A DNA stretch of 64,000 nt from Gaiellaceae bacterium. Its GTDB lineage: Bacteria > Actinomycetota > Thermoleophilia > Gaiellales > Gaiellaceae. Location: assembly GCA_026002995.1 (NCBI GenBank), contig BPGK01000001.1, positions 248,001-312,000 of the forward strand, read 5' to 3'. Position 1 is the stretch's first letter, and each line of letters starts with the position of its first letter. The notes under the pieces were generated by a model. The model had not been told where the DNA came from. It did not search any database and saw only the letters and a list, made by a program, of their open reading frames with translations. Both the position numbers and the translations under genes were made by a program. Below, one piece after another: positions 29,211 through 45,121 of the stretch.

Positions 29211-30452
29211 GTGGCGACGAGCGCCGAACGACCGCGGATCCTCGTCCTGAACCAGTACTACTGGCCGGGAGTCGAGGCGACCGCGCACCTCCTGACCGAG
29301 CTGTGCGAGGCGCTCGCACGCGACTACGAGGTCGAGGTCGTCACTGGCGTTCTGCACGGGCACGAGGACGAGCCCCGCGTGCTCGAGCGCAACGGCGTTC
29401 GGATCACCCGCGTCGCATCCACCTCCTACGAGCGCTCGGCGATCGGTCGCCGGGCGGCGAACTACTTCTCGTACCTCGGCTCCGCGCTCGTCCATGCACT
29501 TCGAGGCCCGCGGCCCGACCTCGTGCTGTGCATGACCGACCCGCCCATCGTCGGCGATCTCGGTGTGGCCGTCGCGCGGCGGTTCGACGCCCCGGTCGCC
29601 GTCGTCAGCCAGGACGTCTTCCCCGAGATCGCGACCGAGTTGCATCGGCTCGAGAACCGGCTCGTCGTCGGGGTTCTCGGCGGCCTCGTCGGTGCCTACT
29701 TGAAACGGGCGGATCGCATCGTGGCGATCGGCGAGACGATGCGCGACCGCCTCGAGGCGAAGGGGGCGCCGCGCGAGCGCCTGCGCGTGATCCCGAACTG
29801 GGTCGACACGCGCGAGATCACTCCCCAGCCGCGCGACAACGCCTGGGCGGAGCAGCACGGGCTCGTCTCGAAGTTCGTCGTCATGCACTCGGGGAACGTC
29901 GGGCACGCGCAGGACCTCGACAGCCTCGTTCGCGCTGCCACCTTCCTGCGCGACCGCGACGACCTCCGGATCGTGATCGCCGGCTTCGGCGCCAGGCATG
30001 CGGAGATGGTCGCGCTCGCCCGGAGGCTCGAGGTGGAGGACACCGTCCGCTTCCTTCCCTACCAGGATCGAGCGCGGCTTCCCTTCTCGCTCTCGAGCGC
30101 CGACCTCCATGTCGTCGGGCTCGCGAAGGGGCTCGCGGGCTACGTGGTGCCGAGCCGGCTGTACGGAATCCTCGCGGCCGGCCGGCCGGTGGTCGCAGCA
30201 GCCGAGGCCGAGAGCGAGACGGCGCGGATCGTGCGCGAGGTCGGCTGCGGAATCGTCATCGATCCGGGGCGTCCCGAGCTCCTCGCCCGGACGATCCGGG
30301 ATGCCGCGGAGGGGAAGCATGATCTCGTCGAGATGGGACGGCGGGGACGCGCCTGGGTCGAGCGCGAGGCCGATCGAGCCGTCGCGATGGAGCGCTACCG
30401 TGCGCTCGTGCGAGAGCTCGTAGACGGCGCCGCGGAGCGTGGCGCTCGATGA
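29211..30452 (+). CDS. Glycosyltransferase family 4 (WbuB-like)
   Basis: A 413-residue GT-B enzyme with the WbuB-type N-terminus ILVLNQYYWPGVEATAHLLT and CMTDPPIVGDLGVAVARRF. The donor half has RVIPNWVDTREITP, VVMHSGNVGHAQDLDSLVRA and a modified acidic site in AKGLAGYVVPSRLYGILAAG. WbuB and relatives transfer an N-acetyl-fucosamine-type sugar to a lipid-linked HexNAc. The GDP-fucose-synthase-like gene at the right edge makes some deoxy sugar plausible, but the donor is not proven. The next gene overlaps its stop as ATGA. Confidence 0.85.
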   Translation: MATSAERPRILVLNQYYWPGVEATAHLLTELCEALARDYEVEVVTGVLHGHEDEPRVLERNGVRITRVASTSYERSAIGRRAANYFSYLGSALVHALRGPRPDLVLCMTDPPIVGDLGVAVARRFDAPVAVVSQDVFPEIATELHRLENRLVVGVLGGLVGAYLKRADRIVAIGETMRDRLEAKGAPRERLRVIPNWVDTREITPQPRDNAWAEQHGLVSKFVVMHSGNVGHAQDLDSLVRAATFLRDRDDLRIVIAGFGARHAEMVALARRLEVEDTVRFLPYQDRARLPFSLSSADLHVVGLAKGLAGYVVPSRLYGILAAGRPVVAAAEAESETARIVREVGCGIVIDPGRPELLARTIRDAAEGKHDLVEMGRRGRAWVEREADRAVAMERYRALVRELVDGAAERGAR

Positions 30453-31609
30453 CAGGGCCTCCGAGATCCATCCCGGCTCACTCGGCAGACGAGGACGCCG
30501 CCGTGGGACGGGCCGAGATGGGGACGTTCCAGGATGTCCGAGTGCCCCGCTCGCTCGTGCTCGCCGCGGCGATCAGCTGGCGCCTGCTCGTCGTGGGAGC
30601 CGCCGTCTACGTGACGGTCACACTCCTCGCGCGCCTGCAGGTGATCATCGTCCCGGCGGCCGTCGCGCTGCTTCTGGCTTGCGCTCTCTGGCCCGGGGTC
30701 CGGAGGCTCCGTGCGAGCGGCCTGCGCCCCGCGTTCGCCGCGGCCACGATGCTCGTCGCGCTCCTGGGGGCGGTCTCCGTCGTCGTTCTCGTGCTCGCGC
30801 CGCGCGCGGCCGACGAGATCTCGGAGCTCGACGTCAACGTCGCGGGCGGCGTGGACGTGATCAAGGGCTGGCTGACCGATGGGCCGCTCTCCTTCTCGGA
30901 GGCCAGGGTCGAGAGCTTCTTCGACGAGCTCGAGAGCCAGCTTCGAGCGGCCAGCGGGACGATCGCGAGCGGCGCCCTGGGGGGCGCGATGCTCGCCGCT
31001 GAGATCGTGGTGGGGATCCTCCTCGCGGTCGTGCTGCTCTTTTTCTTCCTCAAGGACGGCGATCGCATGTGGCTGTGGCTCGAGCGCCTCCTCCCGGAGT
31101 CGAGACAGCAGGCGTGGCACGCGACGGCCGTGGAGGTTCGCGACGTCCTCTCCGCGTTCATCCGCGGAACCGCGATCGTCGCCCTCGTCGACGCGATCGG
31201 GATCGGCCTCGGCCTCTACCTCCTCGGCGTGCCCCTCGTCGTCCCCCTCGCCGTGCTCACCTTCGTCGGCGGGTTCGTCCCCATCGTCGGGGCGACCGTG
31301 GCCGGGTTCGTCGCGGTGATGGTGGCGCTCGTGAGCGACGGATTTGTCATCGCGCTTCTCGTGCTCGGGGTGGTGATCCTCGTCCAGCAGCTCGAGAGCA
31401 ACTTCCTGCAGCCCGTCGTCGTAGGGAGGTACGTCCAGCTCCACCCGGCTGCCGTGCTGCTCGCGGTCGGAGCAGGAGCCGTCCTCTACGGTGTCGCTGG
31501 CGCCCTTCTCGCGGTTCCGGTGACGGCTGCGCTCTCGGTCGTGCTCGGTCGCAACCGCCCGCGACCCGAGGCGGCGGTCGTCCTCGGTGGCTCACAGCCC
31601 GAGGCGTGA
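30449..31609 (+). CDS. AI-2E/PerM-family membrane protein
   Basis: A 386-residue polytopic protein. TMs near residues 45-65 and 70-110 precede a soluble region (about 115-175), followed by TMs including VGILLAVVLLFFFLKDGDRM, then VPLVVPLAVLTFVGGFVPIVG, and a QQLESNFLQPVVVGRYVQLH block. This block and the FVPIVGATVAG run are hallmarks of the AI-2E transporter (PF01594) family, whose members are proposed exporters or permeases. The start ATG overlaps the previous glycosyltransferase stop. Its role in a glycan locus is unclear; it may be a hitchhiking housekeeping gene or move an intermediate. Confidence 0.87.
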   Translation: MTGPPRSIPAHSADEDAAVGRAEMGTFQDVRVPRSLVLAAAISWRLLVVGAAVYVTVTLLARLQVIIVPAAVALLLACALWPGVRRLRASGLRPAFAAATMLVALLGAVSVVVLVLAPRAADEISELDVNVAGGVDVIKGWLTDGPLSFSEARVESFFDELESQLRAASGTIASGALGGAMLAAEIVVGILLAVVLLFFFLKDGDRMWLWLERLLPESRQQAWHATAVEVRDVLSAFIRGTAIVALVDAIGIGLGLYLLGVPLVVPLAVLTFVGGFVPIVGATVAGFVAVMVALVSDGFVIALLVLGVVILVQQLESNFLQPVVVGRYVQLHPAAVLLAVGAGAVLYGVAGALLAVPVTAALSVVLGRNRPRPEAAVVLGGSQPEA

Positions 31610-31627
31610 GGGGCCTCGGGGCGTCCC

Positions 31628-31633
31628 TACAAT
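31628..31633 (+). promoter_or_regulatory. -10 box TACAAT for the 31641-35270 operon
   Basis: TACAAT, a seven-base spacer and GTG 31641. It is among the closest matches to the TATAAT consensus in the window and also selects the start in a frame that is open further upstream. Confidence 0.6.
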
Positions 31634-31640
31634 CGCGCCG

Positions 31641-32768
31641 GTGATCGCGAGGACTGCGTTTTGGGGTGCGCTCGGCGCGCTCGCCTGGACGCACGTCGGC
31701 TACCCGGCGTTCATGGCGCTCTTGGCGCGGGCACGACCACGACCCGTCTCGAAGGGCGACGTGACGCCGACGGTCGCGCTCGTCGTCTCCGCGCACAACG
31801 AGGAAGCGGTGATCCGTCGGCGGCTCGAGAATCTGCTCGAGCTCGAGTACCCGGCGGAGCGCGTGGAGATCGTCGTCGCCTCGGACGGCTCGAGCGACCG
31901 AACGGACGAGATCGTCGAGGAGATCGCGGCCCGCGAGCCGCGCGTGCGTCTCCTGCGCTGTCCGCGCGAGGGCAAGGTCGCCGCGCAGCATCGCGCCGTG
32001 CGGGAGACGGAGAGCGAGGTCCTCGCCTTCACCGACGCCAATACGTCGTGGCGTTCCGATGCGCTTCGGTTGCTCGTGCGCAACCTGGCCGATCCCGAGG
32101 TCGGCTACGTCTGTGGGCAGCTCCGACTCGAGAGCTCCGAGGGCGAGAACCTCGAGGGCCTCTACTGGCGCTACGAGGTGTGGGTTCGCGAACAGGAGTC
32201 GCGCGCGAGCTCGATCACGGCCGGCAACGGCGCCATCTACGCGGTGCCGCGCGACGCGTACGTCGAGGACGACCCGAGGTTCGGTCACGACTTCGGCTTT
32301 CCGTACCTCATGGAGCAGCGCGGGCGGCGCGCCGTCTACGAGCCCGCCGCAGTCGCCGTCGAGCGGGCTGCGAGCGAGACCGAGGACGAGTACGGGCGCA
32401 AGGTGCGCACGATCGCCCGCGTCTGGGGCCACATCCTGACCGGGCGCGTGTTTCGTCCGGTGCGGCCGCTCTACGCCGTCCAGCTCTTCTCCCACCGCAT
32501 CCTGCGGTACTCGAGCGGCCTCCTCCACCTCGCGCTCCTCCTCTCCAACCTCGCCCTCGTCGGTCGCGCCCCGTTCTACCGAGCGTCTCTCGCGCTCCAG
32601 GTCGCGGGCCTCGCGCTCGCGGGCGCCGGCAAGGCCCGCGTTCCGATCCCCGGCGCCCGCCTCGCCTTCTACTACGTCGCGGTCACGTGGGCGACGCTGG
32701 CCGGGCTCGTCCGCTACCTGCGCTCGGGCACCCCGCAGATGTGGGAGAAGGCGAAGGGCACGCGGTGA
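31641..32768 (+). CDS. Membrane-anchored glycosyltransferase family 2
   Basis: A 375-residue protein with one N-terminal TM (FWGALGALAWTHVGYPAF), a GT2 domain (VALVVSAHNEEAVIRRRLEN, VASDGSSDRTDEI, AFTDANTSWRSDA as the DxD region, and EDDPRFGHDFGFP), and two or three C-terminal TMs. TPHQ-like QxxRW is replaced by RKVRTIARVWGHI. The layout resembles hyaluronan synthase-like or poly-GlcNAc synthase-like processive GT2 enzymes, though it could be a simple membrane GT. It begins an operon with the sugar phosphotransferase and two TupA-like genes. Confidence 0.85.
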   Translation: MIARTAFWGALGALAWTHVGYPAFMALLARARPRPVSKGDVTPTVALVVSAHNEEAVIRRRLENLLELEYPAERVEIVVASDGSSDRTDEIVEEIAAREPRVRLLRCPREGKVAAQHRAVRETESEVLAFTDANTSWRSDALRLLVRNLADPEVGYVCGQLRLESSEGENLEGLYWRYEVWVREQESRASSITAGNGAIYAVPRDAYVEDDPRFGHDFGFPYLMEQRGRRAVYEPAAVAVERAASETEDEYGRKVRTIARVWGHILTGRVFRPVRPLYAVQLFSHRILRYSSGLLHLALLLSNLALVGRAPFYRASLALQVAGLALAGAGKARVPIPGARLAFYYVAVTWATLAGLVRYLRSGTPQMWEKAKGTR

Positions 32769-33355
32769 ACAGGCTCGCGGACGTCCTGATCGCGGGCACC
32801 GGGCTCGCGCTCACGAGCCCCGTGCTCGGGCTCGCTGCGCTCGCGATCAAGCTCGAGGACGGAGGTCCCGTCCTCTACCGACAGACCCGCGTGGGGAAGG
32901 ACGGGAAGGACTTCGAGCTCTTGAAGCTCCGCACGATGGTCGTCGGAGCGGAGCGGATGGGCGCAGGGTATGCGGTCAACGCCGGCGATCCCCGGATCAC
33001 GCGGGTCGGGCGTGTCCTGCGTCGCACGTCCATCGACGAGCTGCCGCAGCTCTGGAACGTGCTTCGAGGCGACATGAGCATCATCGGTCCGCGTCCGACG
33101 CTTCGTTACCAGGTCGAGCAGTACGACGAACGTCAGCGCCGCCGCCTCGAGGTGAAGCCGGGGCTCACGGGGTGGGCGCAGGTGAACGGACGCGCTGCGC
33201 TTCCCTGGGCGGAGCGAATCGAGCTCGACGTGTGGTACGTCGACAACCGCTCGCCGCTGCTCGATCTGAAGATCCTGCTGCGGACACCCCTCGCGCTCTT
33301 CCGCGGGACGTACAAGGGTGCCACCGGCGGCTGGCACGGCACGCCCGAGCGATGA
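32765..33355 (+). CDS. Short polyprenyl-phosphate sugar-1-phosphate transferase
   Basis: A 196-residue member of the bacterial sugar transferase family (PF02397), consisting of the catalytic core only. One N-terminal hydrophobic segment (re-entrant helix) is followed by KLEDGGPVLYRQTRVGKDGK, FELLKLRTMVV, TRVGRVLRRTSIDELPQLWN with the catalytic Asp-Glu, GDMSIIGPRPTL and VKPGLTGWAQVNGR. It starts a lipid-linked repeat unit by moving a sugar-1-phosphate from UDP-sugar to undecaprenyl phosphate at the cytoplasmic face. A second, long member lies at 57682, suggesting two separate initiation events. GTGA overlap at the 5' end and ATGA at the 3' end. Confidence 0.92.
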   Translation: MNRLADVLIAGTGLALTSPVLGLAALAIKLEDGGPVLYRQTRVGKDGKDFELLKLRTMVVGAERMGAGYAVNAGDPRITRVGRVLRRTSIDELPQLWNVLRGDMSIIGPRPTLRYQVEQYDERQRRRLEVKPGLTGWAQVNGRAALPWAERIELDVWYVDNRSPLLDLKILLRTPLALFRGTYKGATGGWHGTPER

Positions 33356-34299
33356 CTGCGCTCGCGCGCCACGTCCTTGCGGCGGGTAGCCGTGTGATCG
33401 GTCTGCCCCTCTTCCCGGGATCGTGGGAGCGTGCTCTTCGCGAGTGGAAGTGGAGCGGGGATGCGCGACGAGCGCTCGCAGTCCCGCGCCGACCTCGAAC
33501 GTTCAACGAGAAGGTCCGCTTCAAGATGGCGAGCGATCGACGTCCCATCATCGCCACGCTCTCGGACAAGGTCGAGACCCGGTCCTACGTCGAGCGACTC
33601 ATCGGGCACGACGTTCTGACCGAGGTCTACCTCGTCACCGACGATCCGAGCGAGTTGCGTCGGGAGCGCTTCCCGCGCGAAGTCGCGATCAAGGCTGCGC
33701 ACGGTTCCGGAGGGTGCGTGCTCATCTCGGATGCGGCCCCTCCCGACGCGGCGCTGCCCGAGCCTCCCGTCGGCTGGTCGCGATTCCTCGTGCGGCCCGA
33801 GGCGACGGACTGGGGGAGGCTCCGTCGTCTCTGCGCGGAGTGGCTCTCGCGACGGTACGCGACCTGGGAGTGGGGCTACCGCGACCTGATCCCTCGGATT
33901 CTGGCTGAGGAGCTCCTCCACGGGGAGCAGGGCGTTCCCTGGGACTACAAGCTCTTCACCTTCCACGGCCGCGTACGACTCGTCGAGGTCGACGTCGATC
34001 GGTATGGCGAGATTCGACGTACGCTGTACACGCCCGACTGGGAGCTCGTTCCCGTCCGGTTCAAGTATCCGCGCGGCCCCGAGGTCGAGCGCCCGGAGCG
34101 ACTCGACGAGATGATCGAGATCGCGGAGCGGCTCGCAGGAATGCTGGACTTCGTGCGCGTCGACTTCTTCGCTCTCGGCTCCAGAGTCGTCGTCGGTGAG
34201 CTGACGTCCTACCCCGGGGCTGGCGCCTCGCTCGTCGATCCGCCCGAGTTCGATGCCGAGCTCGGCTCCTGGTGGTCGCAGCCGAGGAGGTACCGGTGA
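33352..34299 (+). CDS. TupA-like ATP-grasp protein, first of a tandem pair
   Basis: A 315-residue member of the TupA-like ATP-grasp family (PF14305), named after the teichuronopeptide biosynthesis protein of alkaliphilic Bacillus. It has TFNEKVRFKMASDRRPI, TLSDKVETRSYVE, a Gly-rich AIKAAHGSGGCVLIS ATP-binding stretch, RILAEELLHGEQGVPWDYKL, FTFHGRVR and MLDFVRVDFFALG. ATP-grasp enzymes activate a carboxylate and join it to an amine. A likely job is adding an amino acid or peptide to a uronic-acid sugar in the polymer (inference from the family name; the chemistry of TupA itself is little tested). Overlaps the next paralogue by one base. Confidence 0.82.
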   Translation: MTALARHVLAAGSRVIGLPLFPGSWERALREWKWSGDARRALAVPRRPRTFNEKVRFKMASDRRPIIATLSDKVETRSYVERLIGHDVLTEVYLVTDDPSELRRERFPREVAIKAAHGSGGCVLISDAAPPDAALPEPPVGWSRFLVRPEATDWGRLRRLCAEWLSRRYATWEWGYRDLIPRILAEELLHGEQGVPWDYKLFTFHGRVRLVEVDVDRYGEIRRTLYTPDWELVPVRFKYPRGPEVERPERLDEMIEIAERLAGMLDFVRVDFFALGSRVVVGELTSYPGAGASLVDPPEFDAELGSWWSQPRRYR

Positions 34300-35270
34300 T
34301 GCGCATCCGCTCGATCCTCGGTCGGATCGCGCGCTCGCGCGTCACGCCTCGCCCTCTCCGCGAGCGATTCGAGCGCTGGCGCTGGAGTCGCTCGGCCGCA
34401 CGGCTGCTCGGCGTCCCGCGGAGTCCGACGACCTTCAACGAGAAGACGCGGTACAAGATGGCCCACGATCTGCGTCCGCTGCTCACGACGCTCTCTGACA
34501 AAGTGGCGGCGCGGGAGTACGTCGCGCGGATCATCGGGCCAGCCGTGCTGCCCGAGCTCTACCTCGTGACTCGGGAGCCGGCGGCCGTTCGCCGCGAGAC
34601 GCTCCCCCGAGACGTCGCAGTCAAGGTCGCGCACGGGTCGGGTGGCGTCGTGCTCGTCTCCGGGAGCGCGCCGGTCGACAACCGGCTGCGCGAGCCACCT
34701 GTCGGCTGGACGCGATTCCTCGTCCATCCCGAGAGCGTCGACTGGGACGTGCTGCGCGCGCTCCTAGCGGACTGGCTCTCCCGACCGTACAAGCCCGACA
34801 CGCACTGGCCGAACAGTCGGATCGTCCCCCAGATACTCGCCGAGGAGCTCGTGTACGAAGACGGGGCGATCGCGCGGGACTTCAAGCTGTTCACGTTTCA
34901 CGGACGTGTGCGAGTCATCGTGGTCGACACGAATCGCTTCTCAGGGCACGTGCGGACTCTCTACACACCCGAGTGGGAGCGCCTGGCGTTCGAGCTCAAG
35001 TTCCCCGCCGGCCCGGACGTCGAGCGGCCTGCACTGCTGCGCGAGATGGTCGACGTCGCCGAGCGACTCGCCGGTGGGCTCGACTTCCTGCGCGTCGACC
35101 TCTACGTGCCGGGCGACCGCCTCGTCGTCGGCGAGTTGACGAGCTTCCACGGCGCCGGCACGGAGGAGTTCAGGCCAGCCTCTTGGGACGCCTGGCTGGG
35201 GTCGTTCTGGACGATTCCGAGGCGCTACCGACGCCCGTTGACGCCCTTCGCTTCGAGCAGGGAGCGGTAG
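34299..35270 (+). CDS. TupA-like ATP-grasp protein, second of a tandem pair
   Basis: A 323-residue paralogue of the preceding gene with the same order of blocks: TFNEKTRYKMAHDLRPL, TLSDKVAAREYVARIIG, AVKVAHGSGGVVLVS, EPPVGWTRFLVHPES, QILAEELVYEDGAIARDFKL, FTFHGRVRV and LDFLRVDLYVPGDR. Differences cluster at the N-terminus and in the loops after the ATP site, so the two may use different acceptors. The ATG at 34299 shares one base with the previous TGA (TGATG). The last 46 bases overlap the end of the minus-strand GT4 gene, the largest tail overlap in the window. Confidence 0.82.
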   Translation: MRIRSILGRIARSRVTPRPLRERFERWRWSRSAARLLGVPRSPTTFNEKTRYKMAHDLRPLLTTLSDKVAAREYVARIIGPAVLPELYLVTREPAAVRRETLPRDVAVKVAHGSGGVVLVSGSAPVDNRLREPPVGWTRFLVHPESVDWDVLRALLADWLSRPYKPDTHWPNSRIVPQILAEELVYEDGAIARDFKLFTFHGRVRVIVVDTNRFSGHVRTLYTPEWERLAFELKFPAGPDVERPALLREMVDVAERLAGGLDFLRVDLYVPGDRLVVGELTSFHGAGTEEFRPASWDAWLGSFWTIPRRYRRPLTPFASSRER

Positions 35271-36424
35271 AGGCGGTCCACGTCGTCGACGAGGCGCTCG
35301 ACCGCGTACCGGCGGCGAACCCGCTCCCGACCGCTCACTCCCATCTCTCGTGCCCGCTCGCGATCGTCGGCGAGCCGCGCCAGGCGATCCGCCGCTGCCT
35401 CGATGTCGCCCGGCTCGACGAGGAACCCGTCGATCCCGTCTCGAACGACGTCCGGCACGCCCCCGACGCGGTTCGCGACGACCGGCGTGCCCGAGGCGAG
35501 CGCCTCGATCGCCGAGACGGGCGTCCCCTCGTTCACGGACGGTAGGAGGAAGGCGTCGAACAGCTCGTAGTAGGGCGCGACCTCCGTCTGGTAGCCGACG
35601 AAGTACACGCTGCGCGCGATTCCGAGCTCGTGGGCGAGCCCCTCGAGCCCGTCTCGCTCCGGCCCGTCGCCGACCATGCAGAGGGCTGCGTCGACACCGC
35701 GGTCGCGGAGGGAGGCGAGGATGCGAAGCAGAGCGCCCGTGTCCTTCACGGCCGTCATCCGACCGACCCAGCCCACGACGAACGTCCGCTCCGGGATTCC
35801 GTATGCGCGGCGCAGGTCGAGCGCGGCGGCGCTCCCGACCCGATCCTCGAGCGGGACGCCGAGATGGACGACCGCGAACTTCGAGCGCGGCGCGACGCCG
35901 AGCGCGACGAGCTCGTCGCGCACCTCCGGGCTTACCGCGACGAGGACGTCCGATCGTGTCGCGAGGACGCTCTCGACGAGTCGGAAGAACGCCGCGCGGC
36001 CAGGGCCGAAGTACCCCTTTAGCACGTGCCCGTGGAAGGTGTGCACGACGACCGGCGGTCGCGATCGACCCGCCAGGATCGCCGCTGCGCGTGCGAGCGC
36101 CCCGGCTTTGGCGGTGTGCGTGTGCAAGATGTGGGGGCGCACCGCGTCGATCAGCGAGGCGAGGCGACGCACGGCCCGCGCATCGTTCAGCGGCGAGACC
36201 TCCCTCTCCATCTCCGGCACCGCGACCACGGAGACGCCGAGCCGGTCGGCGAGAAACGCCATCGAGTCCTCGCCCCGCGCGAGGCTTCCAGCGACGAGCG
36301 TCGTCCGATAGCCACGAGGCTCGAGCCCTGCGGCGAGGCTCGCGACGTGGATCGCCGGACCGCCCATATTCAGACGCGCGATGACGCGCAGGACGCGAAT
36401 CGACTCGGAGCCGGCCCCCGACAC
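35225..36424 (-). CDS. Glycosyltransferase family 4
   Basis: A 399-residue GT-B enzyme. The acceptor half has VLRVIARLNMGGPAIHVASL, HILHTHTAKAGALARAAAIL and HTFHGHVLKGYFGPG; the donor half has VVHLGVPLEDRV, FVVGWVGRMTAVKDTGALL and LPSVNEGTPVSAIEALASGT followed by ANRVGGVPDVVRDGIDGFLV, a complete E(x7)E site. The HTHTAKAG/FHGH combination is common in actinobacterial and cyanobacterial capsule clusters. GTG 36424 is preceded by TAAGGT eight bases upstream. The donor is unknown. Confidence 0.88.
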   Translation of the reverse strand: MSGAGSESIRVLRVIARLNMGGPAIHVASLAAGLEPRGYRTTLVAGSLARGEDSMAFLADRLGVSVVAVPEMEREVSPLNDARAVRRLASLIDAVRPHILHTHTAKAGALARAAAILAGRSRPPVVVHTFHGHVLKGYFGPGRAAFFRLVESVLATRSDVLVAVSPEVRDELVALGVAPRSKFAVVHLGVPLEDRVGSAAALDLRRAYGIPERTFVVGWVGRMTAVKDTGALLRILASLRDRGVDAALCMVGDGPERDGLEGLAHELGIARSVYFVGYQTEVAPYYELFDAFLLPSVNEGTPVSAIEALASGTPVVANRVGGVPDVVRDGIDGFLVEPGDIEAAADRLARLADDRERAREMGVSGRERVRRRYAVERLVDDVDRLYRSLLEAKGVNGRR

Positions 36425-36490: not shown

Positions 36491-37408
36491 ATGCGCTACG
36501 TCGTCACGGGGGCGGCCGGGTTCGTCGGCTCCCACCTCCTGCGCGCGCTCCTCGAGCGGGGGCACGACGCCGTCGGTTGGGACGCCTTCACGGACTACTA
36601 CGACCCCGCGCTGAAGGAGGAGAACGCGGCCGGGCTCCCGGTGGAGCGGCTCGATCTCGTCGACGACCCGCTCGAGCTCGAGGGAGTGGATGGCGTGTTC
36701 CACCTCGCAGGGCAACCGGGCGTACGGAGCTTCGGAGCCGTGTTCCCCGTGTACGTTCGGGAGAACATCCTCGCCACGCAGCGTCTCCTCGAGGCGGCTG
36801 CGAGGGCCGGCTCGCGGGTCGTCTTCGCCTCCTCGTCCTCGGTGTACGGCGACGCCGAGACCTACCCGACACCCGAGCAGGCGGTACCAGCCCCGCTCTC
36901 ACCGTACGGAATCACGAAGCTCGCCTGCGAGCACCTCGCCTCCGCGTGCGGGCGCGAGCTCGGGCTCGACTGGGTCACGCTCCGCTACTTCACGATCTAC
37001 GGCCCGCGACAGCGGCCGGACATGGCGCTCGCTCGCATCGTCTCCTGCCTCGTCGAGGGGCGTCCGTTCGAGCTCTACGGCGACGGCTCCCAGTCGCGGA
37101 GCTTCACCTTCGTCGACGACGCGGTCGAGGCCACGATCGCCGCGATGGAGCGCGGACGAGCGGGCGCGACCTACAACGTCGGGGGCGGTGAGGAAGCGAC
37201 GCTGCTCGAGGCGATCGAGACGCTCGGGCGTATCGCCGGCCGGAGGCTCGAGGTCGTCCGGCGGCCACGACGGGAGGGTGACGCGCGGCGCACGTCCGCC
37301 GACACGACGCGGATCCGCGCCGACCTCGGCTGGGCGCCGGCGACGAGCATCGAACGGGGTCTGGAGGCTCAGTGGCGCTGGGCCGCTGATAGGGTCGCGG
37401 CCGCATGA
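36491..37408 (+). CDS. UDP-glucuronate 4-epimerase-like extended SDR
   Basis: A 305-residue extended short-chain dehydrogenase. NAD binding is by GAAGFVGSHL at residues 8-17. The catalytic residues are in FASSSSVYG and the YGITK Tyr-Lys pair. DAFTDYYDPALKEEN and HLAGQPGVR are typical of UDP-glucuronate 4-epimerases, which interconvert UDP-GlcA and UDP-GalA in the cytoplasm. TIYGPRQRPDMAL and FTFVDDAVEA close the substrate site. UDP-GalA would supply acidic sugars for amidation or peptide ligation by AsnB or the TupA-like proteins (inference). Its stop overlaps the Wzz-like gene by four bases. Confidence 0.82.
   Translation: MRYVVTGAAGFVGSHLLRALLERGHDAVGWDAFTDYYDPALKEENAAGLPVERLDLVDDPLELEGVDGVFHLAGQPGVRSFGAVFPVYVRENILATQRLLEAAARAGSRVVFASSSSVYGDAETYPTPEQAVPAPLSPYGITKLACEHLASACGRELGLDWVTLRYFTIYGPRQRPDMALARIVSCLVEGRPFELYGDGSQSRSFTFVDDAVEATIAAMERGRAGATYNVGGGEEATLLEAIETLGRIAGRRLEVVRRPRREGDARRTSADTTRIRADLGWAPATSIERGLEAQWRWAADRVAAA
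37390..37395 (+). promoter_or_regulatory. Possible internal -10 box TAGGGT
   Basis: TAGGGT is nine bases before ATG 37405, inside the epimerase gene. Because the gene is also coupled to its upstream neighbour this may be chance. Confidence 0.25.
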
Positions 37409-38304
37409 TGGAGCCCCGTTCCGACGCCGAGCTCGTAGAGGACGAGGTCGACCTCGCGTCCGCGTGGCGACGGCTGACGCTGCGCTGGTGGCTGCCGGTG
37501 GGAGGGCTCGTCGCCGGCGCGGTCGTCGGTGTCGGTCTGGCTCTCTCCGGCGGCACCGTCTGGCGGGCCGAGACGATCGTCTACCTCGGCCAGCCGTTCG
37601 CTGCGCTCGGCGGGGGGCAGATCCAGAGCCTCGCGACGAACCCCAGAACCGTCGGCGAGATCGTCCGCTCCGAGCGTGTGCTCCAGGACGTCTCCCGTAC
37701 GACGGGCATTCCGGTCGCGAAGCTGCGGACGTCGATCTCCACCCGCGAGCTCGTCGCGACCGGGCAGGCGCGCGGGATCAACCCGCTGATCGAGATCGCC
37801 GTCAAAGGGACGCAGCCGCGCAAGCTCGAGGCGGCGGCGGACGCGCTCGCCGAGCGCGTCGTGGAGAACGTCTCGCGCTTCGTGATTCAGAAGACGGAGC
37901 TCCTCGAGGAGCAAGTCGCGCGGAACGAGGCACAGCTCGAGGAGGTGAACGAGCGCATCCGCTCCGCGCAGGAGCAGCAGGCGGAGGTCATCGGAAATCG
38001 GACGCTTCCGCTCGGTGAGCGGCTCCTCCTCACCGCGAACCTCAACTCCGTGATCACGACCGCGGACGCGCGCAGGGCGGCGATCCAGGATCAGCTCTTT
38101 CAGGCGCGCCAGCTCCTCAACCAGGCCGAGAACGTCGAGGCGAGCCGCGTCGTCGAGCGGGCGGCGGCGGCGAAGACGTCCGCTCGCTCGAGTCGGACGT
38201 CGCTCCTCGTCGGCGCCCTCGTCGGGCTCCTGCTCGGCGCGATCGCGGCCCTCGCGGTCGAGCCGATCCTCGCGCGACGGCGCACTGCGGCCTCGGACGG
38301 CTGA
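37405..38304 (+). CDS. Wzz-like polysaccharide co-polymerase (chain-length regulator)
   Basis: A 299-residue protein with TM1 near residues 30-50 (LPVGGLVAGAVVGVGLALSG), a long extracytoplasmic region rich in charged helices (about 140-260, probable coiled coil, with KTELLEEQVARNEAQLEEVN), and TM2 near residues 267-287. That two-TM layout is the Wzz/PCP type that sets the modal length of Wzy-made polymers. No cytoplasmic tyrosine kinase domain follows. It lies between the epimerase and a GT2 gene, overlapping both. It most likely pairs with the Wzx/Wzy proteins at 43727-46476. Confidence 0.72.
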   Translation: MMEPRSDAELVEDEVDLASAWRRLTLRWWLPVGGLVAGAVVGVGLALSGGTVWRAETIVYLGQPFAALGGGQIQSLATNPRTVGEIVRSERVLQDVSRTTGIPVAKLRTSISTRELVATGQARGINPLIEIAVKGTQPRKLEAAADALAERVVENVSRFVIQKTELLEEQVARNEAQLEEVNERIRSAQEQQAEVIGNRTLPLGERLLLTANLNSVITTADARRAAIQDQLFQARQLLNQAENVEASRVVERAAAAKTSARSSRTSLLVGALVGLLLGAIAALAVEPILARRRTAASDG

Positions 38305-39245
38305 TGCTCGAGGGCAAGCGGGTCGCCGTCGTCGTGCCCGCGTACGACGAGGAGCGCCTCGTCGCCGAGACGCTCCGCGGGATCCCCGGCTTCGTCGACC
38401 GCGTCTACGTCGTGGACGACGCCTCGCGGGACGGCACGGCCGCGGCTGCCGAGGCGGTCGGAGACGAGCGCGTCGTCGTCCTCCGTCACGAGCGAAACCA
38501 GGGGGTAGGCGCGGCGATCGTCACGGGGTACCGGGCGGCGCTCGCAGACGAGATCGACGTCACCTGCGTGATGGCAGCGGACAACCAGATGGATCCGTCC
38601 GAGCTCGAGAGGCTGGCGGCGCCCGTCGCGCGCGGCGAGGTCGAGTACGCGAAGGCGAACCGGCTCGTCTCGGGCGAGGCCTGGAAGGTCATCCCGCGCA
38701 CGCGCTACCTGGGGAACGCGGTGCTCTCGCTCCTGACGAAGATCGCCTCCGGCTACTGGCACGTCGCCGACTCGCAGGCGGGCTACACGGCGCTTGCGCT
38801 CGACGCGCTGCGGCGGCTCGATCTCGACCGGCTGTACACGCGCTACGGCTTCCCGAACGACCTCCTCGTCCACCTGAACGTGCAGAACGCACGCGTGCGG
38901 GACGTCCCCTCGCGGCCGATCTACGGCGTCGGTGAGCGCTCGGGGATCCGACTGCGCTCCGTCGTGCCGCGGATCTCGTGGCTTCTGTGGAAGGGCTTCT
39001 GGTGGCGGCTTGCGCAGAAGTACGTCATCCGCGACTTCCACCCGCTCGTCTTCTTCTACGTCTTCGGCGCCGCGATGCTGCTGGCGGGGGTCGTCCTGGG
39101 AGCGATCGAGGTCGTTCTGCGCGCCTTCGGCAACGCCATCCCTCCGGCGACCATCGTGCTCGTCGCCGTGCTCGTCATCGCCGGGCTCCAGCTGACGCTC
39201 TTCGCCATGTGGTTCGACATGGAGCAGAACAAGGAGCTCAGGTGA
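38304..39245 (+). CDS. DPM1-like GT2 with two C-terminal membrane segments
   Basis: A 313-residue protein. Residues 1-225 are GT2: VAVVVPAYDEERLVAETLRG, VYVVDDASRDGTAAAAE, the CVMAADNQMDPSELERLA DxN in place of DxD, ADSQAGYTALALDAL and YTRYGFPNDLLVHLNV. Two hydrophobic segments follow (FFYVFGAAMLLAGVVLGA and PATIVLVAVLVIAGLQLTLF). It probably makes a polyprenyl-phosphate-linked sugar for extracytoplasmic transfer. ATG 38304 shares one base with the Wzz-like stop. Its last eight bases overlap the end of the minus-strand sulfotransferase. Confidence 0.85.
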   Translation: MLEGKRVAVVVPAYDEERLVAETLRGIPGFVDRVYVVDDASRDGTAAAAEAVGDERVVVLRHERNQGVGAAIVTGYRAALADEIDVTCVMAADNQMDPSELERLAAPVARGEVEYAKANRLVSGEAWKVIPRTRYLGNAVLSLLTKIASGYWHVADSQAGYTALALDALRRLDLDRLYTRYGFPNDLLVHLNVQNARVRDVPSRPIYGVGERSGIRLRSVVPRISWLLWKGFWWRLAQKYVIRDFHPLVFFYVFGAAMLLAGVVLGAIEVVLRAFGNAIPPATIVLVAVLVIAGLQLTLFAMWFDMEQNKELR

Positions 39246-40047
39246 GACACCTTCCGGCTTCGAGCGCCTCCAGCTCCTCCAGCATCGCCGCGTAGCGCGT
39301 GCCCGCGAGCGCGCGCCGGACCTCCTCCCTGTTCGCGACGAGATCCAGCGGGCGCGGGCTCGTGACGACGAGCGTGGTCTCGGCAGGCCACGGCTTGGTC
39401 GCAAGCCCGAGGAAGGTCGCGATGCGAGCGAGCTCGGAAGTCGTCCTCGCCACGAGGTCCTCGTAGGAAACCTCGAGCGTCGGGAACCGATGGTGAGCGA
39501 GGAGCTCGCGGCTCTTCGCGACCTCGGCTTCCATGCGGTCGAGATCGCGAGCGAGCTTCTCCGGCTTCAGGCGCACCGTGACCTGTAGGAGTGTGTCTCC
39601 AACTCGAGCTCTGAACACGCCGCGCGCAACCGCCACCCGGAGCGAGATGAGCTTGGCGAGCGTGTTCCGTCGAACGAGGTGGACGATGCGCGACTGTCGG
39701 CGGGCGAGGGCGTCGAGGAGAGTCGGTCGACGGCGCGTGTTCTCGAGCATCACCTTGAGCCCCACGGCGCGAGATCGCGGTCGCGAGCGATAGAGAAGCC
39801 TCAGGTAGAGATCGAGCTCGAGCTCCTCGACGCGCGGAATCCTCCGAGCGAACCGGGTCGGCAGGTCGTCGAATCGGACGAAGCCACGGTCTCCGTTGTC
39901 ACGCGGGACACCTCGCCCTTCGTAGAAGCGCTCACCGAAACAGGTAATCGCAGGGTGGGAGTTCAGGAGCTCGACGAGCCACGAGGAGCCCGTTCTCGGC
40001 GTGCTGAAGATCGCGAACGGGGTCACCTGCGGCTGTCTGCGTCTCAT
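39238..40047 (-). CDS. Stf0-type sulfotransferase family protein
   Basis: A 269-residue protein with the 5'-phosphosulfate loop [20 protein letters not shown] at residues 12-31. [20 protein letters not shown] gives the 3'-phosphate-binding Arg and Ser region, and VSYEDLV is the usual helix cap. The RTGSSWL loop is like that of trehalose sulfotransferase Stf0 and many mycobacterial Stf proteins; PAPS-dependent sulfation of a sugar is the expected reaction. The frame is open upstream to 40137; ATG 40047 is chosen because homology starts 11 residues later and a TACTCT box precedes it. ATG 40098 is an alternative. Confidence 0.82.
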
Positions 40048-40057
40048 CGCGGCGACG

Positions 40058-40063
40058 AGAGTA
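40058..40063 (-). promoter_or_regulatory. Possible -10 box TACTCT for the sulfotransferase gene
   Basis: Minus-strand TACTCT ends ten bases before ATG 40047. The longer spacing and an alternative upstream ATG make it a weak call. Confidence 0.3.
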
Positions 40064-40131
40064 CGCAACGCTGACCGGCCGATGTACCACGAGGTCATGG
40101 GTACGGCGAGGCCGCACGCCGCACGTGCGGC

Positions 40132-40137
40132 TAGCAT
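40132..40137 (+). promoter_or_regulatory. -10 box TAGCAT for the UDP-GlcA decarboxylase gene
   Basis: TAGCAT, eight-base spacer, ATG at 40146. It excludes the in-frame ATG at 40125, which lies upstream of the box. Confidence 0.55.
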
Positions 40138-40145
40138 CGAACGCC

Positions 40146-41087
40146 ATGCCGACGTCAGTCGTCACCGGCGGAGCGGGCTTCCTCGGCTCGCACCTGTGCG
40201 AGGCGCTGCTCGAGCGCGGCCATCGCGTCATCTGCCTCGACAACCTCGTCGTCTCGACGCTCGAGAACATCGACCACCTGCGCGACGACGCGTTCGTGTT
40301 CGTGAACCACGACGTCATCGAGCCGATTGTGATCGACGAGCCCGTCGACGTCGTCTTCCACCTCGCCGCGCTCGCGAGCCCGGTGGACTACCTCCGCATG
40401 CCGCTCCACTCGCTGAAGACGGGGTCGTACGGGACTCATCACGCTCTCGGCCTCGCGAAGTGGAAGCGGGCGCGCTTCGTCCTCGCCTCGACGAGCGAGG
40501 TCTACGGCGACCCGGAGGTGCACCCGCAGCCCGAGACGTACTGGGGGAACGTCAACCCCATCGGGCCGCGCGGCGTGTACGACGAGGCGAAGCGCTACGC
40601 GGAGGCGCTGACGATGGCGTACCACCGGCAGCAAGGCGTTGACACCGCGATCGCGCGCATATTCAACACGTACGGACCACGGATGCGGGCGCACGACGGC
40701 CGCGCGATCCCCACCTTCCTCCGCCAGGCTCTCGAGGGGAAGCCGGTCACGGTCTTCGGCGACGGCTCGCAGACGCGGAGCTTCTGCTACGTGGACGACC
40801 TCGTCCGCGGCATCGTCCTCCTCGCCGAGTCGGGCGAGCACCTCCCCGTGAACCTCGGAAACCCGGACGAGAAGACGCTCCTCGAGCTCGCGCGACTCAT
40901 CATCCGGCTCGCGGGCTCCTCGAGCGAGATCGTGTTCGAGGCGCTTCCGGTCGACGACCCGCAGGTGCGCCGGCCGGACATCACGCGCGCGCGGCAACTG
41001 CTCGGCTGGGAGCCCGAGGTCGCGCTCGAGGACGGGCTACGCCGAACCCTCGCTTCGCTCGGGCACGAGGCCGCCGTCGGGGCGTGA
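40146..41087 (+). CDS. UDP-glucuronate decarboxylase (UDP-xylose synthase)
   Basis: A 313-residue extended SDR very like UXS enzymes, which oxidise, decarboxylate and re-reduce UDP-GlcA to UDP-xylose using bound NAD. It has [19 protein letters not shown] at residues 8-26, [56 protein letters not shown] with the Tyr-Lys pair, and [19 protein letters not shown]. The [14 protein letters not shown] block is a UXS hallmark. The gene is coupled to the downstream methyltransferase by a GTGA overlap. It indicates xylose, or arabinose after epimerisation, in one of the polymers. Confidence 0.93.
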
Positions 41088-41698: not shown

Positions 41699-42095
41699 AC
41701 TCGTCTGCCTTTCCGAAGGCGGCGCGCCGGGCGATATCGGCCTCGTCGACCATGTGCCCGTCGCGCTCCACGTAGCCCCCTTTGCCGCCGACGACGAGGA
41801 GAACGAGATCCTCGCTCTCGCTCGCGTTCGAGACACGGCGCGGGGTCGTGGACTCGACGTGGCAGAGCCCGCCGGCCTCGAGGATGCGCTCCTCGTCCGC
41901 CACCTCGAAGCGGGCAGTTCCGGAATGGACGAAGTAGAGCTCGTCCTGCGTGTCGTGGTAGTGGAAGAAGCCGACGTATCCCGGGGGCATGACGATCGCG
42001 TTGACGCCGAAGGCCGTGACACCGAGCGGCGCGCGGATCTTGCGGAAGCCGTACCCCTCGCCGAGCTCGTCGAGGGTTGCGAATGCGTGTGCCAT
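41688..42095 (-). CDS. Cupin-domain protein
   Basis: A 135-residue single-cupin protein. Motif 1 is seen as FFHYHDTQDELYFVHSG, with two His and a Glu that would bind a metal, and motif 2 as LCHVESTTPRRVSNAS, with one His. Proteins of this type include sugar isomerases, epimerases and dioxygenases, but many are of unknown function. It is the last gene of the operon 45121-41688, behind a UDP-sugar epimerase gene, so a role in sugar modification is possible. ATG 42095 has a clear Shine-Dalgarno sequence, unusual here. Confidence 0.78.
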   Translation of the reverse strand: MAHAFATLDELGEGYGFRKIRAPLGVTAFGVNAIVMPPGYVGFFHYHDTQDELYFVHSGTARFEVADEERILEAGGLCHVESTTPRRVSNASESEDLVLLVVGGKGGYVERDGHMVDEADIARRAAFGKADESTA

Positions 42096-43036
42096 CACCG
42101 TTCCTTTCCGTTCAGGAGGTACTCGCACGTCCTGGAGAGGCCCTCTTCCAGTCCGATCTGCGGCTCGTACCCGAGCCCGGCCCGCGCCTCGCCGATGTCC
42201 GCCCAGGAGTTGCGGAGGTCGCCGGGACGCGGGGGGAGGTACGTCTTCTCCACCGGCCGCCCGAGCAGGCGGCCGATCGTGTCCGCGAGCTCGTTGACGC
42301 TCGTCGGCGACCCGGCGGAGATGTTGAAGATGCGTCCGCTCACCCCTTCGGCGTCGGCCGCGAGGAGGTTGGCGCGGACGACGTTGTCCACGTACGTGAA
42401 GTCGCGCGACTGCTCGCCGTCGTCGTACACCGTCACGGGCCGTCCCTCCGCGATCGCCGTGATGAAGCGCGGGACGACGGCCGCGTACTGCGAGGTCGGA
42501 TCCTGGCGGGGGCCGAACACGTTGAAGTAGCGCAGCACAACGGTCTCGAAGGAGTGGTAGACGCGGCTGAAGCTCACGCAGTAGCGCTCCGCGGCGAGCT
42601 TCGCGACCCCGTACGGGGAGACCGGGTCGGGCGCCATCGTCTCGCGCAGGGGGAGCTCGGGCTGGTTGCCGTAGACGGAGGAGGAGGAGGCGAAGACGAC
42701 GCGGCGCACGCCCTCGTCGCGGGCGGCGAGCTGGACGTTCAGCGTCCCCTCGATGTTCACGGCGCTCGATGTGAGCGGGTCCTGCACCGAGCGCGGCACC
42801 GACCCGAGCGCCCCGAGGTGGTAGACGACCTCGGTGCCGCGCACGGCGTTGTGCACGCGCTCGTAGCTGCGGAGCTCGCCCTCGACGACCTCGACGTCGC
42901 GCTCGAGGCCGTCGAGGTTGCGGCGACTCCCGGTCGAGAAGTTGTCGAGGACGCGCACCTCGTCGCCGCGGGCGAGGAGGGCGCGGACGAGATTCGAGCC
43001 GATGAACCCGGCGCCGCCGGTGACGAGGACCTTCAT
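42095..43036 (-). CDS. UDP-N-acetylhexosamine 4-epimerase-like extended SDR
   Basis: A 313-residue extended SDR. It has VTGGAGFIGSNLVRALLARG at the N-terminus, LDNFSTGSRRNL, HLGALGSVPRSVQDPLTSSA, FASSSSVYGNQPELPL and SPYGVAKLAAERYC with the Tyr-Lys pair, plus LRYFNVFGPRQDPTSQYAAV. The SVPRSVQDP stretch is characteristic of WbpP/Gne-type enzymes that prefer UDP-GlcNAc/GalNAc or their uronates, as distinct from GalE. It would supply a 4-epimer nucleotide sugar to the same pathway. It overlaps its upstream neighbour by four bases and the cupin gene by one. Confidence 0.83.
   Translation of the reverse strand: MKVLVTGGAGFIGSNLVRALLARGDEVRVLDNFSTGSRRNLDGLERDVEVVEGELRSYERVHNAVRGTEVVYHLGALGSVPRSVQDPLTSSAVNIEGTLNVQLAARDEGVRRVVFASSSSVYGNQPELPLRETMAPDPVSPYGVAKLAAERYCVSFSRVYHSFETVVLRYFNVFGPRQDPTSQYAAVVPRFITAIAEGRPVTVYDDGEQSRDFTYVDNVVRANLLAADAEGVSGRIFNISAGSPTSVNELADTIGRLLGRPVEKTYLPPRPGDLRNSWADIGEARAGLGYEPQIGLEEGLSRTCEYLLNGKER
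42101..42107 (-). promoter_or_regulatory. Ribosome binding site AAAGGAA for the cupin gene
   Basis: Minus-strand AAAGGAA, five bases before ATG 42095 and inside the end of the epimerase gene. It is one of very few Shine-Dalgarno sequences I could find in the window and it fixes the start against an upstream in-frame ATG at 42128. Confidence 0.6.
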
Positions 43037-43734
43037 TGCGGCACCTCGGCGACGACGTGGTAGTTCGCGTGGAGCGTGCCCGGACCCGGCTCGCGCAGAC
43101 GCGGCGACCGGGCGTCGATCGCCTCGGCGAGCGTGTTCGTGGCTGCGACCAGAGGCCGCGCGAGCCGACGGAGCCCGCCGCGCTTGAAAGCGAGGTCGAG
43201 GTAGAGCGAGACGATCATCCCGAGGCAGGCCGTGGTGCCGGAGGCGGGCGTCACCTTAACGGAGGCCCAGGAGGCGCTCTCGGTGAAGAGCTTCTCGAGG
43301 CCGGCGTGCGTCCAGCGCCAGTAGTCGGCGGGCGAGGGGTGGTAGACCATGACGCCGTGGGTCGTCGCGAGGACGCGGCCGCCGGGAGCGGTCACGCGCC
43401 GAAGCTCGGACACGGCACGCCGCGGATCGTCGCAGTGCTCGAGCACTTGCGTACAGAGAACCACGTCGAAGCTCCCGTCAGCGGCCGGGAGCTCCTCGAC
43501 CGAGCCACGGAGGTCGGCGTGGGGATTGTCGACCGGGTCGACGCCGACGTAGCTCTCGACGAAGGGGGCGAACAGCGGCTCGTACGGCTTCGCGCCGCAG
43601 CCCACGTCGAGCACGCGGTAGCGGCCGAGCTCCTCGTGCGCCCGGCGCGCCTCGGCTGCAAGCCAGCGAACGAGTGGCGCCCGCACCGCGTAGGTCGGCA
43701 GCGAGCGCGGCGGGTGGAGGCGCACATCAGCCAC
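43033..43734 (-). CDS. SAM-dependent class I methyltransferase
   Basis: A 233-residue protein with YRVLDVGCGAKPYEPLFAPF (motif I), YVGVDPVDNPHADLRGSVEE, SFDVVLCTQVLEHCDDPRRA and VTAPGGRVLATTHGVMVYHP, then ADYWRWTHAGLEKLF. The C-terminal part (about 150-215) has a hydrophobic helix that may touch the membrane. It is the second gene of the 45121 operon, after the O-antigen ligase-like gene. GTG 43734 lies eight bases inside that gene; GTG 43725 is an alternative. Its substrate is probably a sugar or lipid carrier of this pathway. Confidence 0.8.
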   Translation of the reverse strand: MADVRLHPPRSLPTYAVRAPLVRWLAAEARRAHEELGRYRVLDVGCGAKPYEPLFAPFVESYVGVDPVDNPHADLRGSVEELPAADGSFDVVLCTQVLEHCDDPRRAVSELRRVTAPGGRVLATTHGVMVYHPSPADYWRWTHAGLEKLFTESASWASVKVTPASGTTACLGMIVSLYLDLAFKRGGLRRLARPLVAATNTLAEAIDARSPRLREPGPGTLHANYHVVAEVPQ

Positions 43735-45121
43735 GGATGCTCCCCTCCGCGACCGCAGCGGACGTGACCGCGAGGCCCAGGACGAGGCTCGTGGCCGCTT
43801 GCAGGGGAATTCCCGCCACGATCCCCATGGATGCCCACTCTCCCGCAAGGGTCGCGAGCGCGCAAACGGAGAGGAGCCCTGCCCCGGCGGCCCACGGGTC
43901 CGGAGCCCGGCGAGCACCACGCCAGGCGAGGGCGATGCCGGCCCCGCCGACGGCGAGGAGGAGCACGAGCCCGATCGCTCCGGCATCCGCGAGCATCTGG
44001 ATGTAGAGGTTCTGCACGCCCCACTCGCGACCTGCGGCCGGGAACGCTTCCTCCGCGACGCCCGGGAAGCGGGCTCGAGCGTCGTCTACGTACGGCTCGA
44101 ACACCTCCGGGCTCGACGAGCGCAGCCAGCCGGCGCCGGCGACCGGGTGGTCGGCGAAGATCCGGAGACCGATATAGGCGAGCACCGTGCGGTGGGAGTA
44201 CGACTCCACGCCGACGGCGGGGGCCTCGCCCCGGAGGCCCAGGAAGCGCAGGAAGCTCCCGAGGTCGCTGTCGCGGATCGTGACGACGCCGGCGGCGGTG
44301 ACGGCGACGAGCGCGGTGAGCGCGAGCGTCCTGCGTCCCGAAGGGACGAAACCCGGGCGCGCGGCGAGCCAGAGGAGGGCGGCGCCGGCGGCGAGACCCG
44401 CGGCGGCAGTGACGGAGCCTGCGAGGATCATCCCCAGGACGCCGGCGCCCGCTGCGAGCGCGAGGAGGCGAGGCGCCGGCACGCGATCGCGGCCGGCGAC
44501 GATCCCCGCGGCTGCGAGCGCGGCGCCGAGCGCGCCGAGCGCGGCGAGATCGTGGTGGCCGAGGAAGGACGGCTGCCGCCAACCCGGGTTCCAGGCGTCG
44601 AACGCGCCCCAGCCGACGAACTGCGCGAGTGCGACGAGCGCCGCGATCGAGCTCCATACGACCACGCCGGCCAGCACGAGCGCGAGGTCGCGAGCACGGC
44701 GTACGAGGAGCGGCACGGCGAGCGCGAAGAGCGCGTACTCGACGAGCTTGAGGTAGGTGACGAGGTGCTCGGCGACCCGCTCGTCGCCGAGCGAGGCCGG
44801 GCGCAAGGCGCTGACAGCGAGCCAGGCGAGCAGGGCGGCGCCGGCGATCCACACCGCACGGCCGGCACGCAGAGGCGCCCACCCCTCGCGCAGGGCGCCG
44901 AGCGCCCCCGCGAGAACGACCACCGCGAGCGCGAGGTCGGAAGGCCGGAGCTCGGCTTCGGTCGCTCCGAGGTCGAGCGCGAGACTCGGCTGGTAGCGCT
45001 CGTGGAGGAAGAGGAACGGGATCGAGACTGCGACGAGCAGGGCGCCGAGGCCCTCGCGCTCGAGGAGGCGTTGGAGGCGGCCCGCCGAGCCGCGGGGGCG
45101 CTCGATCGGGGTCGTCGCCAC
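43727..45121 (-). CDS. O-antigen ligase/polymerase-like protein (Wzy/WaaL type)
   Basis: A 464-residue membrane protein with 10-12 hydrophobic segments. A large extracytoplasmic loop late in the chain holds YSHRTVLAYIGLRIFADHPV, then AGAGWLRSSSPEVFEPYVDD and GVQNLYIQMLADAGAIGLVL. The HR...HPVxGxGW and QNxYxQxLAdaG pattern is that of the O-antigen ligase/Wzy_C family (PF04932), which polymerises or ligates lipid-linked repeat units outside the cytoplasmic membrane. The divergent Wzx-like gene is 56 bases away, as expected for a Wzx/Wzy pair. GTG 45121 has TATAGT six bases upstream. Sequence alone does not separate polymerase from ligase. Confidence 0.83.
   Translation of the reverse strand: MATTPIERPRGSAGRLQRLLEREGLGALLVAVSIPFLFLHERYQPSLALDLGATEAELRPSDLALAVVVLAGALGALREGWAPLRAGRAVWIAGAALLAWLAVSALRPASLGDERVAEHLVTYLKLVEYALFALAVPLLVRRARDLALVLAGVVVWSSIAALVALAQFVGWGAFDAWNPGWRQPSFLGHHDLAALGALGAALAAAGIVAGRDRVPAPRLLALAAGAGVLGMILAGSVTAAAGLAAGAALLWLAARPGFVPSGRRTLALTALVAVTAAGVVTIRDSDLGSFLRFLGLRGEAPAVGVESYSHRTVLAYIGLRIFADHPVAGAGWLRSSSPEVFEPYVDDARARFPGVAEEAFPAAGREWGVQNLYIQMLADAGAIGLVLLLAVGGAGIALAWRGARRAPDPWAAGAGLLSVCALATLAGEWASMGIVAGIPLQAATSLVLGLAVTSAAVAEGSIRG

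Follow-up and report, generated by a model that had tools for sequence, protein, structure and literature searches.

Tandem TupA-like ATP-grasp proteins in a variable slot of a conserved surface-sugar cluster of a Gaiellaceae bacterium

The window analysed here, a stretch of 64,000 nucleotides (positions 248001-312000 of the single-contig 2.62-Mb genome of a Gaiellaceae bacterium), encodes two adjacent TupA-like ATP-grasp proteins, which we call TupA1 and TupA2. In this study, we show that the pair occupies a variable slot in a surface-sugar cluster that is otherwise conserved, a feature on which an earlier note, made from the sequence of the window, had not remarked. Judged by family and predicted structure, TupA1 and TupA2 are very probably ATP-dependent amide-forming enzymes, and the chances are slightly better than even that they act on a uronic acid of the glycan of this cluster. 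Our best explanation as a whole, a duplicated pair of ATP-grasp carboxylate-amine ligases amidating the uronic acids of the cluster, is about evenly balanced between right and wrong. To our knowledge, few enzymes have been characterised for the amide capping of uronic acids. On general grounds, such capping would alter the charge of a surface polymer and probably also phage binding and antigenicity.

Results

Two paralogous TupA-like proteins

The two genes under study are the following.

33352-34299, + strand: TupA1, TupA-like ATP-grasp protein of 315 amino acids; PF14305, 120.2 bits; mean predicted local distance difference test (pLDDT) 88.9; D-Ala-D-Ala ligase (Ddl) Z 14.0
34299-35270, + strand: TupA2, paralogue of TupA1, 323 amino acids; PF14305, 112.5 bits; mean pLDDT 89.1; Ddl Z 14.5

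The start of TupA1 overlaps the stop of the preceding sugar-phosphate transferase gene (Bac_transf, 32765-33355) by four bases as ATGA, the start of TupA2 overlaps the stop of TupA1 as TGATG, and the 3' end of TupA2 overlaps a convergent glycosyltransferase family 4 (GT4) gene by 46 nucleotides. Neither reading frame contains an internal stop. The proteins are 57% identical over 294 columns (BLASTP, expectation value (E) 2e-113) and have the blocks FNEK, LSDKV, HGSGG, ILAEEL and FTFHGRVR in common in the same order. PF14305 (Pfam cut-off 25 bits) covers model positions 1-238 in TupA1 and 7-238 in TupA2, out of 241, and has no further match in the 2.62-Mb genome. The identity and the PF14305 matches in both proteins rule out a chance resemblance, and the earlier description of two paralogues with ordered shared blocks, coupled to a sugar phosphotransferase gene, is thus confirmed. 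Pfam recognises one domain in each protein; both are stand-alone, with no fusion to a glycosyltransferase family 2 (GT2) domain. No NCBIfam profile matched TupA1 or TupA2, and a sequence search for solved relatives gave none of significance.

An ATP-grasp fold is predicted for both proteins by AlphaFold models. The TupA1 model, compared with the PDB by Foldseek, has the ATP-grasp ligase PsnB as its best row (E 2.4e-7, TM-score about 0.39). In VIA-align, D-Ala-D-Ala ligase 6u1k gives the best row for both models, with 202 residues aligned in each case and a root-mean-square deviation of 3.6 for TupA1 and 3.9 for TupA2; LysX/ArgX rows follow at Z 12.4-13.3. Both copies retain the family-conserved residues E53, K54, D72, K73, K114, E186, D198, K200, R269, D271, E283 and T285 (TupA1 numbering). 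Other ATP-grasp enzymes suggest, by analogy, roles for some of them: ATP would be bound by K114 together with the HGSGG that comes after it, and the metal by D271 and E283. A loss of ATP-binding residues in both copies, which the earlier note had considered as an objection to its own proposal, is ruled out by the family alignment, in which both retain the conserved ATP- and metal-type residues.

A variable slot in a conserved cluster

The pair is embedded in a glycosyltransferase-rich region with the following genes.

30449-31609, + strand: AI-2E-family transporter (PF01594), flanked on either side by a glycosyltransferase gene of the cluster
31587-32768, + strand: GT2 glycosyltransferase upstream of the transferase; a frequent upstream neighbour in the family
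32765-33355, + strand: small polyprenyl-phosphate sugar-phosphate transferase (Bac_transf; PF02397, 223.6 bits), anchor of the conserved cluster
35225-36424, - strand: GT4 glycosyltransferase, convergent with TupA2; genomes G007, G006 and G010 have copies 73-76% identical to it
36491-37408, + strand: NAD-dependent sugar-nucleotide epimerase, uridine diphosphate (UDP)-glucuronate 4-epimerase-like; best PDB match 6zl6 (214 bits), MoeE5 206 bits
37405-38304, + strand: Wzz-like chain-length protein (24.5 bits, just below the Pfam cut-off of 25.5); syntenic in sister genomes
38304-39245, + strand: GT2 glycosyltransferase
39238-40137, - strand: sulfotransferase-family gene (PF13469), adjoining the UDP-glucuronate decarboxylase-like gene
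40125-41087, + strand: UDP-glucuronate decarboxylase (UDP-xylose synthase)-like; would consume UDP-glucuronic acid; 361 bits to 4gll/2b69
42095-43036, - strand: WbpP/WbgU-like UDP-hexose 4-epimerase
43727-45121, - strand: Wzy-like polymerase/ligase, a weak match (Wzy_C, 22.8 bits, below the cut-off of 31.7)
45178-46476, + strand: Wzx-type flippase (PF01943, 47.2 bits)
55040-57148, - strand: asparagine-synthase-like protein that also has a glutamine amidotransferase domain (PF00733, PF13537), within this glycosyltransferase-rich region

Much of this arrangement recurs in the sister genome G007, where the upstream GT2 (77% identical), transferase (87%), GT4 (75%), epimerase (73%), Wzz-like protein (74%), second GT2 (81%) and decarboxylase (90%) are syntenic; the AI-2E-type transporter and the sulfotransferase have no match in that stretch. 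At the site of the TupA pair, G007 and another sister genome, G006, carry an APH-family kinase gene (PF01636). In G004, for which no GT4 match was found at this place, the transferase is directly followed by a PylC-like ATP-grasp gene (PF21360, PF15632, PF02655). G006 also has a PylC-like gene, which lies beyond the GT4 gene, where the window has the epimerase.

The slot varies across the bacterial family as well. With a threshold of E 1e-75, the transferase is found in 53 of its 103 genomes, which gives 52 loci besides that of the window, 40 of them with at least 2.5 kb downstream. A PylC-like gene lies downstream in 26 of these 40, always on the strand of the transferase. TupA-like genes follow the transferase in the window only, out of 53 loci, and the PylC-like protein has no match in the genome of the window at E 1e-8. 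Four others of the 40, all of one genus, have another gene after the transferase, with no Pfam match at E 0.001 in three of them; the gene of L109, the one scanned at E 0.1, reached 18.7 bits against ATPgrasp_Ter (cut-off 29.1), so that these genes are possibly divergent members of the ATP-grasp superfamily. In genus g6, an ornithine-cyclodeaminase-like gene stands directly after the transferase (two scanned). The alternative occupants are:

L077:9799-10680 and L078:2423-3307: APH-family kinase genes (PF01636) of two sister genomes, where the window has the TupA pair
L109:4636-5706, L110:2989-4050, L112:3383-4453 and L119:3281-4453: gene of about 350-390 amino acids after the transferase, one genus
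L143:4603-5547 and L147:4421-5497: ornithine-cyclodeaminase-like genes (PF02423), genus g6

The PylC-like gene resembles the TupA pair in belonging to the ATP-grasp superfamily and in occupying the corresponding stretch of this cluster; it differs in its domains, PF21360, PF15632 and PF02655 instead of PF14305. Within the genus, the PylC-like gene (G004, G006) and the 36491-type epimerase (G000, G001, G007, G010; E 1e-60) are found in different genomes, several of which are incomplete. A strict one-for-one swap of a PylC-like for a TupA gene at the same site is not shown by these loci, the positions in G006 and G004 being different. It is conceivable, if rather unlikely, that the cluster holds an exchangeable amide-tailoring position, at which ATP-grasp families would replace one another and alter the capping of carboxylates, and that each of the two TupA copies attaches a different amine.

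The location of the pair beside uronic-acid sugar-nucleotide genes, on which the earlier note had built, is a fair description. The epimerase gene at 36491-37408 begins 1.2 kb beyond TupA2; its nearest solved relatives are 6zl6 and MoeE5, which we take to be UDP-glucuronate 4-epimerases, and it reached no NCBIfam cut-off. The product of 40125-41087 is nearest to UDP-glucuronate decarboxylase. UDP-glucose-dehydrogenase-type genes (PF03721) occur at two places elsewhere in the genome and, together with the genes of the cluster that handle UDP-glucuronic acid, make a supply of uronic-acid donors plausible.

Two neighbours deserve mention in their own right. The sulfotransferase gene has the lowest guanine-plus-cytosine (GC) content at third codon positions (0.807) of the 21 genes measured. 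Asparagine-synthase-like enzymes elsewhere make uronamides, so the gene at 55040-57148 may represent another way of amidating uronic acids in this genome.

Origin of the pair

In a maximum-likelihood tree of TupA-like sequences (42 rows), TupA1 and TupA2 are sisters with support 100/100 and branch lengths of 0.47 and 0.55. This placement indicates that one gene was duplicated in this lineage; on the sequence evidence, the pair is a lineage-specific duplication. Of the 61 genomes in the relatives set, 24 of which are at least 90% complete, only that of the window itself has a PF14305 match; in the class, 3 of 299 genomes have one, and a search with the TupA1 sequence gave matches in 18 of 396 genomes of the phylum. 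An ancestral pair lost by the relatives is less likely in view of the relatives-set and class counts, and gain by transfer is the simplest reading for the gene that was later duplicated. Base composition weakly supports a transfer: the GC contents of the pair are 0.675 and 0.689, the mean of 19 other genes being 0.714 (standard deviation 0.020). A strong compositional sign of recent transfer is not borne out by this weak deviation.

The nearest clade to the pair (support 80/95; 36-45% identical) consists of sequences from Nocardioides, Jatrophihabitans and an Acidimicrobiia contig. Closest by sequence are the Nocardioides and Jatrophihabitans genes (L043-L046, L053; 40-45% identical), which, like the window pair, have an additional loop following HGSGG and finish in a similar way at the C-terminus, mostly with PRRYR. 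In contrast to the pair, they are single copies outside glycan clusters (the L044 locus is only 4.4 kb long). Tandem copies are found elsewhere: among 35 loci (L027-L061), five have two full-length copies (L029, L038, L047, L059, L061), those of L038 about 1.2 kb apart, and L035 and L041 have a partial second copy. The pairs of L047 (Acidimicrobiia, support 100/99) and L029 (a genome of the same class, 99/94) are also sisters in the tree, which indicates that tandem pairs arose independently. The TupA-like copy of G378, a genome of the same phylum, falls among Mycobacterium sequences.

Divergence between the copies

We defined a conserved column as one in which a single residue is present in at least 75% of 37 homologues, which gave 45 columns. 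TupA1 departs from five of them and TupA2 from seven. E173, Y176 and P288 of TupA1, residues on which 89%, 92% and 81% of the homologues agree, are replaced by H, N and H in TupA2. None of the three is among the ATP- and metal-type positions listed above, and two fall in an E-W-x-Y motif. These changes are consistent with an altered specificity of TupA2 and are suggestive, not proof. They are not unique and need not mean a new substrate, since the distant homologue L032 shares N and H with TupA2 at two of these positions. The earlier suggestion of possibly two different amino acids was drawn from copy number and is a guess, to which the three changed positions lend some help; that the copies add different amines is doubtful.

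The same changes could mark TupA2 as a decaying or regulatory copy, with TupA1 alone active, given its seven departures against five and the two altered positions of the E-W-x-Y motif. We consider this very unlikely: TupA2 keeps the ATP- and metal-type residues, its frame is open without stops, the branch lengths of the copies are alike, and its fold is as well predicted as that of TupA1.

Discussion

We propose that each copy would activate a uronic-acid residue, either glucuronic acid or galacturonic acid supplied via the epimerase at 36491-37408, by phosphorylating its C6 carboxylate with MgATP, and that the acyl phosphate would then be coupled to a primary amine to give an amide. By analogy with the Campylobacter domains HS19.11C and Cj1438C discussed below, amidation would take place on the glycan during cytoplasmic assembly, before export by the Wzx- and Wzy-like proteins. 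A common amino acid or amino alcohol would be a likelier amine than a dedicated one, because no gene for a special amine was recognised in the open reading frames of the window covered by our Pfam scans (a part of them, at E 0.01 or E 1e-6). One gene, probably gained by the lineage, would have been duplicated, and the copies, which keep the ATP- and metal-type residues and differ elsewhere, may now differ in the amine or in the residue amidated.

The conserved residues, the predicted fold and the glycan cluster with its uronic-acid genes speak for amidation of the glycan by the pair, as the earlier note had it; the location of the closest relatives outside glycan clusters speaks against it. 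Several further observations weigh on that opposing side. Chains of the carbamoyl-phosphate synthetase, pyruvate carboxylase and biotin-carboxylase type also reach Z 12-13.7 in VIA-align, where we count rows at most 1 Z apart as tied; such ties leave the ATP-grasp fold of the models standing, and the predicted fold alone does not choose the reaction. No Campylobacter-type phosphatase, amino-alcohol phosphate or amine-making gene was recognised among 48 other open reading frames of the window in the Pfam scans, several of these frames being without a match. Moreover, the Campylobacter domains and the Bacillus TupA are likened to the pair by description, not by sequence.

Genomic context elsewhere points in two directions. 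Glycan genes near TupA loci of at least 11 kb were counted with simple profiles made from the glycan genes of the window. In the closest clade, none of five such loci has two or more glycan genes, and L046 has one GT4 gene. Ten neighbours of closest-clade genes were scanned with Pfam, and those recognised include BrkB, MFS, DUF294 and Excalibur proteins, an aldehyde-dehydrogenase match, a methyltransferase and a penicillin-binding protein; a GDSL-lipase-like protein lies just below the cut-off. The tandem pair of L047 adjoins a gene for a bifunctional penicillin-binding protein. Mycobacterial-type relatives, 26-34% identical to the window pair, follow a formyltransferase-like gene in five of six loci (L034, L055, L056, L058, L060) and have at most one glycan gene nearby. 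Taken together, the closest-clade and mycobacterial-type contexts mean that a TupA-like ligase does not necessarily have a glycan encoded nearby as its substrate. The formyltransferase-like genes carry PF00551 and PF02911 in the three loci scanned and form, with the TupA-like gene, a two-gene unit that is uncharacterised.

These contexts favour a different acceptor, in which case TupA1 and TupA2 would still form amides, on a lipid, on peptidoglycan, on a peptide or on a small-molecule carboxylate produced elsewhere, instead of on this glycan. Two results oppose it: the pair overlaps the transferase gene by four bases inside a cluster conserved in sister genomes, and, of the 31 TupA loci in total that reach 11 kb, 12 have two or more glycan genes, as against none of 20 hand-picked control stretches (one glycan gene in 4 of the 20). 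We regard an acceptor elsewhere as distinctly less probable than action on the glycan of the cluster.

The copies could also act in sequence on one site, the first joining an amino acid to the uronic acid and the second adding a further amino acid to that one, or form a hetero-oligomer, with a short teichuronopeptide-like peptide branch as the product. Sister paralogues with overlapping frames and the independent tandem pairs elsewhere would fit such a scheme, and linked peptide ligases often carry out successive ligations, according to PMC4431377. No gene for poly-glutamate synthesis was recognised among the open reading frames scanned, which counts against it, and we hold sequential action to be unlikely.

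In comparison with known systems, the proposed amidation of uronic acids by the pair is best matched by two domains from Campylobacter. As described in PMC11800379, Cj1438C is a TupA-like ATP-grasp domain of Campylobacter jejuni capsule synthesis and forms an amide on the C6 carboxylate of glucuronic acid; HS19.11C, about 60% identical to Cj1438C, also forms an amide there, with production of ADP (PMC13276843). In the cases characterised in these two papers, the amine joined to glucuronic acid, whether in a growing chain or in a simple glucuronide, is either (S)-serinol phosphate or ethanolamine phosphate and not an amino acid. The connection between TupA and uronic-acid amides that the earlier note had drawn is therefore sound; its choice of amino acids is not matched by the characterised cases, which add amino-alcohol phosphates. 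The window pair is like the Campylobacter domains in its TupA-like character (Cj1438C), its place in a surface-glycan cluster and its glucuronic-acid context. It differs in consisting of two stand-alone tandem copies, whereas Cj1438C and HS19.11C are C-terminal domains behind an N-terminal GT2 domain, and Campylobacter has phosphatase and serinol-phosphate genes, none of which was recognised in the window frames scanned.

TupA of Bacillus halodurans, known from teichuronopeptide, gives its name to the Pfam family that both window proteins match; the window pair is set apart from it by a high-GC host, a glycosyltransferase-rich cluster and the presence of two copies. Among the literature matches listed, none concerned tandem TupA-like ligases of actinobacteria. 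With other genes at this position in sister species, the tandem stand-alone ligases provide a clean natural experiment for identifying the group that each of them attaches. The window pair adds to a known kind of enzyme; its novelty lies in the lineage-specific duplication in a variable slot.

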